NCBI RefSeq assembly: GCF_020523925.1
Contig: NZ_JAJAPW010000001.1
Coordinates: forward strand, 434,001-498,000
Reading direction: 5' to 3'
Source of the DNA: Neotamlana laminarinivorans
GTDB lineage: Bacteria; Bacteroidota; Bacteroidia; Flavobacteriales; Flavobacteriaceae
Length of the DNA stretch: 64,000 nt
The notes under the pieces were generated by a model. The model had not been told where the DNA came from, ran no database searches, and saw nothing but the letters and a program-made list of their open reading frames with translations. The position numbers were made by a program, and so were the translations under genes. Position 1 is the stretch's first letter. Each line of letters begins with the position of its first letter. Positions 7,502 to 29,447 of the stretch are shown here, piece by piece.

Positions 7502-8899
7502 TTATTTTAAACTACCAACCATGTCTTCTGGTTTTACCCATTCGTCATAATCTTCAGCAGTAACATAGCCTAAATTAATAGCTTCTTCTTTTAATGTAGT
7601 ACCGTTTTTATGAGCTGTATTTGCTATTTCGGCAGCTTTATAATATCCAATTTTGGTATTCAAGGCTGTAACTAGCATTAATGAGTTATTAAGTAACTTT
7701 GTAATAACTTCTTGATTAGGTTCAATGCCAGAAGCACAATTAACTTCAAAACTTTTACAAGCATCTCCAATTAATTGAGCCGATTGTAAAATGTTTGCGG
7801 CCATTACAGGTTTAAAAACATTAAGTTCATAATGCCCTTGTAACCCTCCAACAGAAATAGCAACATCGTTACCAATAACTTGAGCACAAACCATAGTAAG
7901 CGCTTCACATTGTGTAGGGTTTACTTTTCCTGGCATTATAGAACTTCCAGGCTCGTTTGCAGGAATAGTTATTTCACCAATACCACTTCTTGGTCCAGAA
8001 GCCATTAATCTAATATCGTTTGCAATTTTATTTAAAGAAACAGCAAGTTGTTTTAATGCTCCATGAGATTCTACAATAGCATCATGAGCCGCTAAAGCTT
8101 CAAATTTATTAGGTGCTGTAATAAAAGGTAGTTTTGTAAATTCTGCTATATATTCTGCTACACGTTTGCTATAACCTTTAGGTGTATTTAAACCAGTACC
8201 TACAGCTGTTCCTCCTAAAGCTAATTCACTTAAATGAGGTAAGGTGTTTTCTAAAGCTTTTAACCCATGGTTTAATTGAGCTACGTAGCCAGAAAGTTCT
8301 TGTCCAAGTGTTAACGGCGTTGCATCCATTAAATGTGTGCGTCCAATTTTAACTACATTTTTAAAAGCTTCAGACTTTTTTTGAAGTGTATCGCGTAGCT
8401 GTTTAACCCCAGGAATAGTTACTTCAACTATTTTTTTATAAGCAGCAATGTGCATTCCAGTAGGGAAGGTGTCGTTTGATGATTGTGATTTATTTACATC
8501 ATCATTAGGTTGTATGGTTTTGTCTCCTTCACCAATAACTTTACCAGCCAATTGGTGTGCTCTGTTAGCAATAACTTCATTAACATTCATGTTACTTTGC
8601 GTACCAGAACCTGTTTGCCATATCACTAAAGGGAACTGATCGTCATGTTTACCTTCTAAAATTTCGTCGCAAACATTTGCTATTAAATCTCGCTTTTCAA
8701 CAGGCAAAACACCTAATTCGCAGTTAGTATAAGCAGCCGCTTTTTTTAAGTATGCAAAACCATAAACGATTTCTAGTGGCATAGAAGCAGGAACTCCTAT
8801 TTTAAAATTGTTTCTTGAGCGTTCTGTTTGTGCACCCCAAAGTTTATCGGCAGGTACTTTAACCTCGCCCATAGTATCTTTTTCTATTCTAAAACTCAT
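7502..8899 (-). CDS. fumC: class II fumarate hydratase
   Basis: 465 residues, full length for class II fumarase. It interconverts fumarate and L-malate in the TCA cycle. The fumarase/aspartase superfamily signature [11 protein letters not shown] is intact around residue 318, with the catalytic-loop serine near 319, and the substrate-binding segments SGSQ-type [13 protein letters not shown] and [11 protein letters not shown] are present, the latter followed by the catalytic His region. The fold is iron-free and cytosolic, which distinguishes it from class I enzymes. It is monocistronic: a terminator closes the 3' side and a minus-strand -7 box (8925-8932) lies upstream. Confidence 0.97.
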
Positions 8900-24708: not shown

Positions 24709-25749
24709 ATGAAAAACAGAAATCAAGTATTTGATAATGTATTAGATTTAGTAGGCAATACACCACTTGTAAGGCTAAATCGAATTACTTCGGAATTTGA
24801 AGGAGATTTTTATGCTAAAATAGAATCTTTTAATCCTGGTCAATCATCAAAAGACAGAATTGCACTTTATATTATTGAAGAAGCAGAACGTAAAGGCATA
24901 CTTTCTCCTGGAGATACAATTATTGAAACTACATCAGGTAATACAGGTTTTAGTATTGCTATGGTAAGTATAATTAAAGGTTATGAGTGTATTTTAGCTG
25001 TTAGTTCAAAATCTTCTGCAGATAAAATAGATATGCTTAAAACCATGGGAGCAAAGGTTTATGTTTGTCCTGCGCATGTAAGTGCAGACGACCCAAGATC
25101 TTATTACCAAGTAGCAAAGCGTTTACATGAAGAGCGCAAGGGTTCTGTTTACATTAACCAATACTTTAACCAATTAAATATTGAAGCGCATTATCAATCC
25201 ACAGGCCCAGAAATATGGAAGCAAACCGGTGGTGAAATAACACATTTGGTAGCATGTAGCGGAACTGGAGGAACTATTTCTGGAACTGCACGATTTTTAA
25301 AAGAGCAAAATCCTAATATTAAGGTAATAGGTGTTGACGCTTTTGGTTCTGTAATAAAAAAATATCATGAAACTCGCGAGTTTGATGAAAAAGAAATTTA
25401 TCCTTACAGAATTGAAGGTTTAGGTAAAAATTTAATACCAGCAGCCACAGATTTTGATGTTATTGACGAGTTTGTTAAAGTTACTGACGAAGAAAGCGCT
25501 CACACTGCTAGACAAATTGCTAAAACCGAAGGTATATTTGCTGGATACACATCAGGAGCAGTAATGCAAGCCATTAAGCAGTTAGGAGAAGAAGGACGTT
25601 TTACAAAATCAGACAAAGTTGTAGTTATATTTCCAGATCATGGTTCTAGATACATGAGCAAAGTTTATAGCGAAAAGTGGATGAACGACCAAGGCTTTTT
25701 CGATAGTGTTAATGAGGTTTCAACCCAAAAAATTGAATATATAAAATAA
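24709..25749 (+). CDS. CBS/cysteine-synthase-family PLP enzyme, candidate cysteate synthase
   Basis: 346 residues, fold type II PLP enzyme without CBS pair domains. The PLP lysine is Lys48 in NPGQSSKDR, the substrate loop is TTSGNTG at 74-80, and the phosphate cup is SGTGGT. A generic label would be cysteine or cystathionine beta-synthase. Its neighbour is a serine-palmitoyltransferase-like enzyme; in sulfonolipid-producing Bacteroidota a CBS-like cysteate synthase makes L-cysteate (from O-phosphoserine and sulfite) for such an acyltransferase. That pairing suggests this role, but motifs alone cannot separate it from cysteine synthase. A terminator follows, so the two genes may be separately transcribed. 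Confidence 0.8.
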
Positions 25750-25767
25750 AATATTACAAGCAATAAT

Positions 25768-25806
25768 AAAAAAGGTGTTTTACATAGGTGTAGAACACCT
25801 TTTTTT
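25768..25806 (+). terminator. intrinsic terminator
   Basis: AAAGGTGTT and AACACCTTT form a 9 bp stem with a 14-base loop, followed by a T-tract, 20 bases after the CBS-like gene. Confidence 0.75.
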
Positions 25807-25861
25807 AGTTGTTTTTTTAATAATTGAACATTAAAAATTATGTTCAATCCTATAAAATACT

Positions 25862-25869
25862 TAATTTTG
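25862..25869 (+). promoter_or_regulatory. -7 box for the serine-palmitoyltransferase-like gene
   Basis: TAATTTTG fits TAnnTTTG between the terminator and the gene. It implies a 5' untranslated region of about 100 bases. No strong -33 TTG is seen. Confidence 0.35.
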
Positions 25870-25974
25870 CCACCACTAAATAAAAACGGCTTTTCTCAAA
25901 ACTACACAAACTGTGTTTATATATTTTTTGAAACGTTTTAGTTATAACTTTTTAATAGCCATAAGAATTTTTAA

Positions 25975-27237
25975 ATGAAAGATTTATTTGATAAAATTTA
26001 TAGAGATAAAGGACCTTTAGGAAAATGGGCATCTCATGCTGAAGGATATTTTGTATTTCCTAAATTAGAAGGAGAAATTTCTAACAGAATGAAATTTCAA
26101 GGAAAAGAAGTTATAACTTGGAGTATTAACGATTATTTAGGTTTAGCCAATCATCCTGAAGTAAGAAAGGTTGATGCTGAAGCTGGTGCTAAATATGGTT
26201 CGGCCTACCCAATGGGAGCTAGAATGATGTCTGGTCATACAGAATTACACGAACAACTTCAAAACGAATTAGCAGCATTTGTTAAAAAAGAAGCCGCTTA
26301 TTTATTAAATTTTGGTTACCAAGGCATGGTTTCTACTATCGATGCTTTAGTATCTAAAAATGATATTATTGTTTACGATGTAGATGCTCACGCATGTATA
26401 ATTGATGGTGTGCGTTTACACCATGGTAAACGTTTTACATATAAGCACAACGATGTTGAAAGTTTAGAAAAAAACTTAGAGCGTGCTACTAAAATGGCAG
26501 AACAAACGGGTGGAGGAATTTTAGTAATTTCTGAAGGTGTTTTTGGAATGCGAGGAGAGCAAGGTCGTTTAAAAGAAATTGTTGAGCTTAAAAAGAAGTT
26601 TAACTTTAGGTTATTTGTTGATGACGCTCATGGTTTTGGGACTTTAGGTGCAACTGGCGCAGGTGCAGGCGAGGAGCAAGGTGTTCAAGATGATATTGAT
26701 GTATACTTTGCTACATTTGCAAAATCTATGGCAAGTACAGGTGCTTTTATTGCGGCCGATCAAGAAATTATCGATTATTTAAAGTATAACCTACGTTCGC
26801 AAATGTTTGCAAAGTCACTACAAATGCAATTAGTTGTTGGTGCTTTAAAACGTTTAGATATGTTGCGTACAATGCCTGAGTTAAAACAAAACTTATGGAC
26901 TATTGTTGATGCGTTACAATCTGGATTAAAAAAACGTGGCTTCGATATTGGTACAACACAAAGTTGTGTAACTCCTGTTTATTTAAAAGGAAGTATTCCT
27001 GAGGCTATGGCACTTGTAAAAGATTTACGTGAAAATTATGGGGTTTTCTGTTCTATTGTGGTTTACCCAGTAATACCTAAAGGATTAATTTTATTAAGAA
27101 TGATTCCTACAGCTACACATACTTTACAAGATGTAGAAGAAACACTTAATGCTTTTGATGCTATTAGAGAACGATTAGATAACGGAACTTACAAAAGATT
27201 GTCTGCTGCTGTTATGGCAGAAATGGAAGATAAATAG
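25975..27237 (+). CDS. alpha-oxoamine synthase family (SPT-like), candidate cysteate fatty-acyltransferase
   Basis: 420 residues, the length of bacterial serine palmitoyltransferase. Family marks include DYLGLANHPEV, the cofactor-stacking His region (VDAHACIIDG), DDAHGFGTLG with the PLP-pairing Asp, and the PLP lysine Lys250 in TFAKSMAST. Alpha-oxoamine synthases condense an amino acid with an acyl thioester. In gliding flavobacteria a homologue condenses L-cysteate with a fatty acyl group, the first committed step to capnine, the base of sulfonolipids. The adjacent CBS-like enzyme favours that role over serine palmitoyltransferase or KBL. The 3-keto reductase that would follow is not in the window. 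Confidence 0.83.
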   Translation: MKDLFDKIYRDKGPLGKWASHAEGYFVFPKLEGEISNRMKFQGKEVITWSINDYLGLANHPEVRKVDAEAGAKYGSAYPMGARMMSGHTELHEQLQNELAAFVKKEAAYLLNFGYQGMVSTIDALVSKNDIIVYDVDAHACIIDGVRLHHGKRFTYKHNDVESLEKNLERATKMAEQTGGGILVISEGVFGMRGEQGRLKEIVELKKKFNFRLFVDDAHGFGTLGATGAGAGEEQGVQDDIDVYFATFAKSMASTGAFIAADQEIIDYLKYNLRSQMFAKSLQMQLVVGALKRLDMLRTMPELKQNLWTIVDALQSGLKKRGFDIGTTQSCVTPVYLKGSIPEAMALVKDLRENYGVFCSIVVYPVIPKGLILLRMIPTATHTLQDVEETLNAFDAIRERLDNGTYKRLSAAVMAEMEDK

Positions 27238-27257
27238 TTTATAAAAGATTAAAACTT

Positions 27258-27291
27258 AAAAAACCGATTCTATTAAAGAATCGGTTTTTTT
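27258..27291. terminator. bidirectional intrinsic terminator
   Basis: AAACCGATTC and GAATCGGTTT form a 10 bp stem with a 7-base loop, flanked by A- and T-tracts, between the convergent SPT-like and GNAT genes. Confidence 0.9.
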
Positions 27292-27293
27292 GT

Positions 27294-28418
27294 TTATAGT
27301 AACTTTTTATAAGTTTTTCTACGTTTAGTAATTTTTGGATTAAAATTTTTCCAAATATTTTGAATAGCAATATTGTCTTCCAACTCTGGAGTACGATGGC
27401 AATTTTTTATTCCTCGTTTTTTAAATATTGGGTAATACTCACTAAATAAAATGCCATGAACACCTTTGTTTTGGTAATCTTCACGAATACCTATTAAATA
27501 AAAAACAACATCTTTACTATGTTTTTTTGCATGTAAAATATGTGTAAAACCTAACGGGAATAACTTTCCGTTGGCTTTTTGTAATGCTTCAGAAAAATTA
27601 GGCATTACTATTGAAAACCCTACTAAATCATCATTTGCATCAACTACAAATTTAATATACTCAGGGTTTATAAAACTGATAAATTTCTTTTTAAAATATT
27701 CTTTTTGTACATCGTTAATAGCTACAAATGACGATAATTTAGCGTAAGTTTGGTTAAATAAATCAAACATTTTATCGACATAAGGCATAACATCTTCAGT
27801 TTTTGTGAAATTTAAAGCCTTTAATTTGTAACGCCTTTTAATTAAAGATTGAATTTTTGTAAAATCATCTGGATTTACATCATCAAAAGAAAAAATACTT
27901 TCTCTATAAGATTTCTCTTCTGTATAGTTTTCAGCCTCATAATGTTTTATATAATATGGGTAGTTATACCAAGTAACCATGCTAGAGATGGTTTCAAAAC
28001 CCTCACTCATTACTCCAACTTTATCTAAGTTAGAAAATCCTACGGGGCCTTCTGTGTATTCTAGGTTGTTAGCTTTTCCTATTTCTTCAACTTTTTTTAA
28101 TAAAGCTGAAGAAACTTCCAAATCATCAATAAAATCAAACCAACCAAAACGCATTTTTTTTTGGTTAAGTTCTTTAATTTCTTTCCAATTAATAATGGCT
28201 GCAACACGACCTACAACTTCGTTGTTTTTGTATGCTAAAAATAATCTGGCTTCTGCGTCAAGAAATACAGGATTTATTTTAGTGTCAAAAGATTTCATTT
28301 CTTCACTAATAATAGGAGGGACCCAATATTTTGAGTTTTTGTATAGTTTAAATGGAAATTTTACAAATGTTTTTAAATCCTTTTTAGATTTTACTTCTTT
28401 AAGTGTAATTGTACTCAT
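27294..28418 (-). CDS. large GNAT-superfamily acyltransferase, candidate N-acyltransferase of sulfonolipid synthesis
   Basis: 374 residues. The opening (FVKFPFKLYKNSKYWVPP followed by ARLFLAYKNNEVVGRVAAI) is typical of a family of ~380-residue proteins with a GNAT fold; a second GNAT-like acyl-CoA-binding segment is YLIGIREDYQNKGVHGILF near the C-terminus. As I recall, the Caulobacter ceramide synthase acyltransferase belongs to this general type. Next to a candidate cysteate fatty-acyltransferase, a role in N-acylating capnine is a reasonable inference, not proven. It is transcribed with the outer-membrane protein upstream (gap 24 bases). Confidence 0.75.
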   Translation of the reverse strand: MSTITLKEVKSKKDLKTFVKFPFKLYKNSKYWVPPIISEEMKSFDTKINPVFLDAEARLFLAYKNNEVVGRVAAIINWKEIKELNQKKMRFGWFDFIDDLEVSSALLKKVEEIGKANNLEYTEGPVGFSNLDKVGVMSEGFETISSMVTWYNYPYYIKHYEAENYTEEKSYRESIFSFDDVNPDDFTKIQSLIKRRYKLKALNFTKTEDVMPYVDKMFDLFNQTYAKLSSFVAINDVQKEYFKKKFISFINPEYIKFVVDANDDLVGFSIVMPNFSEALQKANGKLFPLGFTHILHAKKHSKDVVFYLIGIREDYQNKGVHGILFSEYYPIFKKRGIKNCHRTPELEDNIAIQNIWKNFNPKITKRRKTYKKLL

Positions 28419-28442
28419 ATAAATGATTGACGTTATATATAA

Positions 28443-29447
28443 TTAAAAATCAATTTCCTTTTTTTGATTTCGTTTAATAACGTTTTCTTGGTTGTTGTTA
28501 TCTTTATTTTTCTTGTTTTTAACTTTTTTACCGCGTTTCGCTACATCTTTTTTAGAATTTCCATTATCAATTTCTTTATCCTTATGAAAATCAAGTCTAT
28601 AAGATGCGCCAATGGTAGCATTAAAAACAGAGGGGGTGTCTTTAAAATTTGTTGTTACTGCTGCATCAATTTGAAAATCTTTTCCTAATAAATATGCAGC
28701 ACCACCTCTTAATAAGTTATCGGCATAAAAATCGCTTTTTATGCCTTGTGTTTCAGCAAAAATAACCCATTTTGGATTAAATGAATGTGTCAATGTTAAT
28801 ATGTATTGAAAATCAGATTGGTCTGTGCCAATTCTATCCTTTATAAAATTCATTACAAAAACCCATCCGCCAGAAAAATTGTGCTGTGTTGCTATCATAA
28901 TTTTTGGGCTAACACCTTCTACGCCTGCTGTAACATATGGGTTATCTTCAAGATCATAGTTAGCTCCTAAATAAACAGCAACTGCAGGTATTAAAGATTT
29001 CCATTTAAATCTGTTATTAGCTTTCCAGCTGTAAAGGTTTGGTTTTTCTTCTCCAGCATGTTTATAAGGGTCGTAAACCAAATATTTAGCTCCTAATGCT
29101 AAAAATTTAAAATTTCCTCGTTTATCATCAACAGCAAATTCAGAATCAAAAGTTTTTGTATCGCGCTGAAATGTGCCTTCTATATTAATTTCTAATGGCT
29201 CCCATAACAGTCCGTAACGAGCAGCAAAATCAACACCCCAACCTGATACTGAATAAGATGGCGATGGTTCACGTTCTTCTTTAACCATATAAGGACCTAC
29301 TTCAAATTGCGCAACATTTGTTCCTACAGAAAAAGCGCTTCTAGAAACACCTGGGCGATTAGAATTTATAACATCTGTGTATTGGCCATAACTTAATGTG
29401 CTACAACAAATAAATAAGGCTGCTAATAAAGTTTTGTTTAAGTTCAT
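28443..29447 (-). CDS. outer-membrane transporter-like barrel with a lysine-rich tail
   Basis: 334 residues with a signal peptide ending near SYGQ (residue 22). The start of the mature protein (INSNRPGVSRSAF, AQFEVGPYM) and the alternating strands resemble the Phenol_MetA_deg-type putative transporters of PF13557. The barrel seems to end near residue 290 (ATIGASYRLDF); the last ~40 residues are Lys/Asn-rich and disordered, unusual for an outer-membrane protein. It is first in a two-gene operon with the GNAT acyltransferase, so a link to lipid handling is conceivable. No substrate is known. Confidence 0.75.
   Translation of the reverse strand: MNLNKTLLAALFICCSTLSYGQYTDVINSNRPGVSRSAFSVGTNVAQFEVGPYMVKEEREPSPSYSVSGWGVDFAARYGLLWEPLEINIEGTFQRDTKTFDSEFAVDDKRGNFKFLALGAKYLVYDPYKHAGEEKPNLYSWKANNRFKWKSLIPAVAVYLGANYDLEDNPYVTAGVEGVSPKIMIATQHNFSGGWVFVMNFIKDRIGTDQSDFQYILTLTHSFNPKWVIFAETQGIKSDFYADNLLRGGAAYLLGKDFQIDAAVTTNFKDTPSVFNATIGASYRLDFHKDKEIDNGNSKKDVAKRGKKVKNKKNKDNNNQENVIKRNQKKEIDF

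Follow-up and report, generated by a model that had tools for sequence, protein, structure and literature searches.

A probable sulfonolipid locus of Neotamlana laminarinivorans with a candidate capnine N-acyltransferase of the YghO/CerS superfamily

A candidate gene for sulfonolipid N-acylation

We analysed a stretch of 64,000 nt from the genome of Neotamlana laminarinivorans (hereafter the window; positions 434,001 to 498,000 of contig NZ_JAJAPW010000001.1) and found four genes between positions 24709 and 29447 that probably make up a sulfonolipid locus, in which a GNAT-family protein would add the second acyl chain to the amine of capnine or 3-ketocapnine. Family and occurrence make the GNAT gene (27294–28418, minus strand, 374 aa) a strong candidate for the last step, the one still missing from the pathway. 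On balance we favour a fuller reading, in which this protein is the capnine or 3-ketocapnine N-acyltransferase and the last enzyme of sulfonolipid synthesis, its subfamily serving cysteate-based lipids in Flavobacteriales and a second subfamily, encoded beside serine palmitoyltransferase (SPT) in other Bacteroidota, serving serine-based lipids. The GNAT gene is the new content of this work; capA and capB, whose products are identified computationally below, form an ordinary, already known pair. A preliminary description of the window had placed four open reading frames of these kinds here, as coordinates and Pfam matches bear out, and had put the GNAT protein forward as a natural candidate for N-acylation, a proposal supported by its family and its co-occurrence with CapB, the substrate being a matter of the argument given below.

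In Flavobacterium johnsoniae sulfonolipids rank among the dominant lipids of the outer membrane (PMC12045153), and they have been connected with gliding, with inflammation and with the rosettes of choanoflagellates (PMC11211663). Enzymes for steps one to three of their synthesis have been published (PMC10191378, PMC11211663), as have CapA, CapB and CapC (PMC10191378, PMC12927429, PMC11211663). The excerpts of PMC10191378 and PMC9304779 describe capnine N-acylation with no gene for it, and the terms "N-acyl" and "acylation" are absent from the searched text of PMC11211663. Among the papers listed by a literature search, none assigns a gene to this step in its title or at the beginning of its abstract, which does not establish absence from print. 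A single candidate gene that tracks CapB across most of an order makes the step testable and, if the assignment is true, free capnine and the finished lipid become genetically separable.

Identity of CapA and CapB

The product of capA (24709–25749, plus strand, 346 aa) has PALP as its sole Pfam domain above the cut-off (270 bits), with CBS domains absent, and passes the NCBIfam equivalog model NF053679 (CysteaSynCapA) with 649.2 bits against a cut-off of 600. Its nearest solved chain is 9k2p at 508 bits; the highest-scoring chain that bears the name cystathionine beta-synthase reaches 271 bits. We rejected a cysteine or cystathionine synthase since the protein falls below the cut-off of every such NCBIfam model among the 25 of 44 families listed, and the solved-chain scores also speak against the latter. 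The first gene is capA, encoding cysteate synthase, with formation of cysteate from phosphoserine as the predicted activity.

The product of capB (25975–27237, plus strand, 420 aa) matches Pfam Aminotran_1_2 (136 bits) and is closest to solved chain 28eh, named "Cysteate-C-fatty acyltransferase" (716 bits), followed by 7u7h (576 bits), which we take to be Alistipes SulA, and then by SPT (244 bits). We placed 95 alpha-oxoamine synthases, E. coli Kbl among them, in a tree with E. coli BioF as root; the sequences had been labelled beforehand by best score, and none was a named characterised CapB. The 75 CapB-labelled sequences formed a single clade (support 0.97), and the 18 SPT-labelled ones fell outside it. 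The SulA-diagnostic Lys281 corresponds to K280 of the window protein, on the assumption that 7u7h represents SulA carrying a tag of 20 residues, and the position is lysine in 75/75 CapB-type and alanine in 18/18 SPT-type sequences; Lys281 is given as unique to SulA in PMC9304779. SPT, Kbl and BioF were rejected as identities for CapB on account of the separate clade and a score of 300.6 bits to the SPT model NF047600, which fails its cut-off of 640.

The preliminary description had recognised here a CBS-like pyridoxal phosphate enzyme lacking CBS domains before an SPT-like enzyme, the pair making cysteate and condensing it with a fatty acyl group; the Pfam content agrees with the former, and the CapA equivalog match together with the clade and K280 of CapB agrees with the latter. 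Neither a grouping of CapB with Kbl or SPT in the tree nor one of CapA with cysteine synthases, each named in advance as a contrary outcome, was seen. The CapA-CapB capnine pathway has reportedly been treated by Liu in 2022, Vences-Guzman in 2021 and Hou in 2022. It has also been described by Radka (2022). The window shares with that pathway CapA, by a curated model, and CapB, by solved chains, tree and diagnostic lysine, but differs in a terminator-like hairpin between the two genes and in that a linked reductase was not found in the genome. As a side observation, no CapB model is among the NCBIfam families listed for 25975–27237 and the best model there is SPT, at less than half its cut-off; CapB proteins may therefore be misnamed in annotation.

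The GNAT protein and its subfamilies

Residues 38–104 of the GNAT protein match PF00583 barely above the cut-off (23.7 against 20.7 bits). The protein belongs to the YghO/CerS superfamily and is homologous to YghO of E. coli K-12 over its full length, as seen by BLASTP (E 3e-33 over 369 positions at 23% identity) and by profile comparison (E 5.6e-43). Caulobacter CC_1154 and yghO of E. coli BL21 (ECD_02850) are given as one gene, aca, for an acyl-CoA N-acyltransferase required for dihydroceramide (PMC9386255); our sequence comparison was with YghO, through which the link to Caulobacter runs. In the E. coli BL21 record yghO is adjoined by genes for an acyl-AMP ligase, an epimerase and an acyl carrier protein (ACP), and by spt. 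A search of solved structures with the GNAT profile gave weak matches, mostly to small acetyltransferases (best E 0.0066), and a search with anti-phage models gave no match for the GNAT or the barrel protein.

The window protein falls in subfamily I with support 0.998, and YghO lies outside it; G70, G124, P125, G140 and N349 are among the positions common to subfamily I, subfamily II and YghO. The earlier likening of the GNAT protein to the type of Caulobacter ceramide synthesis holds at the level of the superfamily, through YghO. What the window protein shares with the CerS/bCerS proteins (Caulobacter CC_1154, E. coli YghO) is the full-length homology to YghO and the presence of two members of its subfamily in SPT-epimerase operons; it differs in its separate subfamily and in the synthase with which it co-occurs, which is CapB, the genome of the window having no SPT match. 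Subfamily II, from other Bacteroidota, belongs to the same superfamily, but its members score higher against YghO than against the window protein, and serine-based lipids are the expected product of its loci.

Co-occurrence of GNAT and CapB

GNAT and CapB co-occur. In a set of 60 genomes that includes the window's own, with CapB scored at an identity of at least 58%, CapB was found in 52 and GNAT in 48, and GNAT was present in 48 of the 52 genomes with CapB and in none of the eight without. The four CapB genomes without GNAT were G010, G034, G041 (88% complete) and G049. YfhO, a control taken from the conserved block of the GNAT gene itself, was present in 57 of the 60 genomes and in six of the eight that lack CapB. 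Sulfonolipid-free relatives with all four genes, another outcome that would have spoken against the locus, were not seen: among these eight genomes there was no GNAT and a single barrel (G005).

The pattern extends to 294 Flavobacteriales (order and family names, the latter for f1 = Flavobacteriaceae, are deduced from named relatives), of which 214 had CapB and 204 a GNAT match. Both were found in 201, CapB only in 13, GNAT only in three and neither in 77; these joint counts come from two genome listings compared by eye and agree with the tallies. With GNAT restricted to E <= 1e-40, which removes 12 weak matches (nine of them in CapB genomes), it was present in 192/214 genomes with CapB and 0/80 without. 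The three GNAT-only genomes (G351, G385 and G415) have weak matches with E from 1e-16 to 1e-23. The 13 CapB-only genomes are G111, G469, G034, G512, G540, G049, G352, G373, G381, G395, G426, G429 and G435; CapB genomes without GNAT would either make free capnine or use another enzyme. Locus L063 of G034 keeps capA, capB, barrel and flanking genes with the GNAT gene lost, and would be an obvious place to look for free capnine.

Gene neighbourhoods of GNAT relatives

Among 80 named loci the barrel adjoins GNAT in 76, the gap having a median of 26.5 nt, in line with the conserved GNAT/barrel neighbourhood for which the preliminary description had suggested a check. CapB adjoins GNAT in 38 of the same loci and lies within the retrieved stretch in 63; it does not appear in the remaining 17, among which are short ones. 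Two blocks are conserved, GNAT-barrel-DUF4834-YfhO and POP-CapA-CapB, and these are sometimes apart.

In a further set of loci, picked non-randomly from listings and counted without the GNATs L154 and L192 (both of G072), which the simple gene caller missed, CapB is next to a subfamily I GNAT at 26 of the 41 loci from Flavobacteriaceae; of 41 loci outside that family, one adjoins CapB and two adjoin SPT. The latter two, L097 (G048) and L141 (G091), are tight operons of SPT, GNAT and an epimerase-type gene, in which the L141 synthase passes NF047600 with 673 bits and the L097 synthase fails with 545. For subfamily II, 13 of 20 loci have SPT, the synthase of the first step, next to GNAT, all 13 with an epimerase-type gene nearby; for subfamily III, a short-chain reductase is next to GNAT in 4 of 11. 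Each subfamily therefore includes members flanked by a synthase or reductase such as long-chain-base lipids require. The 13 SPT loci are L163, L164, L166–L170, L172–L175, L177 and L193, and L173 also carries a myo-inositol-phosphate synthase beside SPT and GNAT. Work cited in PMC11334938 has the three genes not close together in sphingolipid-producing Bacteroidota.

A further gene of 151–182 aa lies between GNAT and capB, on the strand of capB, in L246 (8193–8672) and 16 other named loci. The L246 product has no Pfam match; the four others that were read are similar and lipoprotein-like.

Substrate of the GNAT protein and alternative explanations

The main argument for the substrate comes from the gene content of the window's genome, which has one GNAT-superfamily match and, at E <= 1e-60, no alpha-oxoamine synthase besides CapB (the next match, at 170 bits, is in the Kbl-like range). 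Capnine is therefore the only predicted long-chain base, and capnine or 3-ketocapnine is the likely substrate. In the inferred reaction the GNAT protein would take an acyl thioester as putative donor in the cytoplasm and acylate the amine of capnine, or of 3-ketocapnine if it acts before the reduction, to give the N-acyl sulfonolipid. This reaction is proposed by analogy with Caulobacter, in which Spt and bCerS are cytoplasmic, bCerS being peripheral on the inner membrane, and in which it is disputed whether acylation or reduction comes first (PMC11087976, PMC11324152).

Several observations weigh against this assignment. The clade joining YghO to the subfamily II set has a support of only 0.49, no NCBIfam model exists for the window GNAT, and neither Pfam nor NCBIfam has one for YghO. 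The barrel is tied more tightly to GNAT than CapB is (76 versus 38 adjacent among 80). CapB was present in the absence of any GNAT match in 13/214 Flavobacteriales, nine more having weak matches only, and in L063 of G034 the GNAT gene alone has gone from between capB and the barrel, leaving 73 nt (7840–7912). Fisher tests for the co-occurrence are extreme and treat related genomes as independent, and 6 of the 20 CapB-less genomes listed (of 80) are of 0.6 Mb or less. Subfamily I also extends to other Bacteroidota that lack CapB, in most cases away from any synthase gene; 38 of its 41 loci outside Flavobacteriaceae adjoin neither CapB nor SPT, and it has members on a Chloroflexota plasmid (L202) and a plasmid of Vescimonas, of the Clostridia (L203).

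The CapB-less Bacteroidota with a subfamily I GNAT probably belong to the Bacteroidales, since the subfamily includes records of Phocaeicola and Prevotella. These members and those on the two plasmids rule out a subfamily strictly specific to sulfonolipids. To our knowledge the bacteria of the L202 and L203 plasmids are not known for such lipids, and searches confined to the plasmids themselves found no match to the SPT model. Across Bacteroidota the GNAT profile is present in 286/296 genomes. Five of the ten genomes without it also lack a synthase match (G060, G065, G070, G074 and G335) and five have one (G111, G099, G122, G082 and G272), while G137 and G350 have GNAT with no synthase match and G125 has a weak synthase match only; we place little weight on these numbers as the synthase thresholds can admit Kbl. 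A FabZ-like gene lies near a subfamily I GNAT in L151, L155 and L157, all three from one family; L151 additionally has genes for a ketoacyl synthase, a glycosyltransferase and an ACP nearby, and in L157 a short-chain dehydrogenase/reductase adjoins GNAT. Such fatty-acid-type neighbours fit an acyl-ACP donor and point to no acceptor.

Subfamily I members in CapB-less Bacteroidota and on plasmids, the FabZ-like neighbours in three loci with the ketoacyl synthase and ACP of L151, and the occurrence in some genomes (G105, G279) of a second GNAT beside SPT would all fit a protein that acylates a different amine lipid or envelope molecule and follows CapB through a shared type of envelope. We consider this unlikely, given that close GNAT relatives are absent from all 80 CapB-less Flavobacteriales at E <= 1e-40, that the neighbouring YfhO is retained in most of the CapB-less genomes of the smaller set, and that ornithine-lipid acylation in F. 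johnsoniae has an enzyme of its own, Fjoh_0833 (PMC12045153).

A housekeeping GNAT whose neighbourhood and co-occurrence reflect nothing beyond inherited gene order and shared ancestry is a poorer prospect still. The two blocks are each conserved and can lie apart, and the co-occurrence tests ignore kinship, as this explanation would have it. Against it, the link between GNAT and CapB also holds where the two genes are apart in the genome, and in family f5, in which GNAT has other neighbours, nuoA- and nuoB-like as judged by eye; the link is therefore not only one of inherited gene order. YfhO, although in the same block as GNAT, does not follow CapB. An independent outer-membrane unit of GNAT and barrel, serving acylation and transport and unrelated to capnine, is very improbable despite their close adjacency in 76/80 loci, as outside Flavobacteriaceae the barrel accompanies few GNAT genomes and G005 has a barrel with neither GNAT nor CapB.

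The barrel protein and transcription units

The gene upstream of GNAT in the same unit (28443–29447, minus strand, 334 aa) encodes an outer-membrane barrel-type protein that matches the PF13557 (Phenol_MetA_deg) domain above its cut-off, at 101.6 bits, and is not tied to the capnine pathway. In the 60-genome set the barrel was found in 38 genomes, 36 of them Flavobacteriaceae; outside that family it was matched in 2 of 15 GNAT genomes, both weakly. Its presence in G005, which has no CapB or GNAT, and its rarity in GNAT genomes outside the family led us to reject it as a pathway component. We count the barrel as a GNAT-linked gene and not as a biosynthetic enzyme; it does not track the pathway, and a part for it there finds no support.

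A hairpin scan found six terminator-like sites, compared with a mean of 2.7 in shuffled sequences. One is a hairpin of 17 pairs with a T tract between capA and capB (25768–25805, plus strand); because of it these adjoining genes are perhaps not on one transcript. Another, of 14 pairs (27258–27290, both strands), lies in the 56 nt convergent gap between the ends of capB and GNAT and sets GNAT and barrel apart as a separate unit. Barrel and GNAT lie on the same strand with a gap of 24 nt, close to the median in relatives, and are probably co-transcribed, as had been proposed.

Short-chain reductases near capB

The preliminary description had placed the ketoreductase outside the window. In agreement, none of the 17 matches in the genome to one reductase from a capA-reductase-capB locus lies inside the stretch (contig positions 434001–498000). 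We could not name a CapC among them: when the best 8 of the 17 were compared with capB-linked reductases, the top pairs had 28–38% identity with none favoured.

In nine other loci a short-chain reductase is encoded either between capA and capB or no more than two genes away from the latter, providing candidate 3-ketocapnine reductases. The gene is between capA and capB in L062, L067, L072, L073 and L081 and beside capB in L070, and a reductase of another type is present in L066, L077 and L183; PMC11211663 describes no adjacency of this kind in the two species that it treats. In two families a protein of about 287 aa and of cupin_8 type (by Pfam for L062, by eye for L073) is encoded together with the reductase between capA and capB (L062, 9566–10429; L073, 4402–5268), and is perhaps a hydroxylase.

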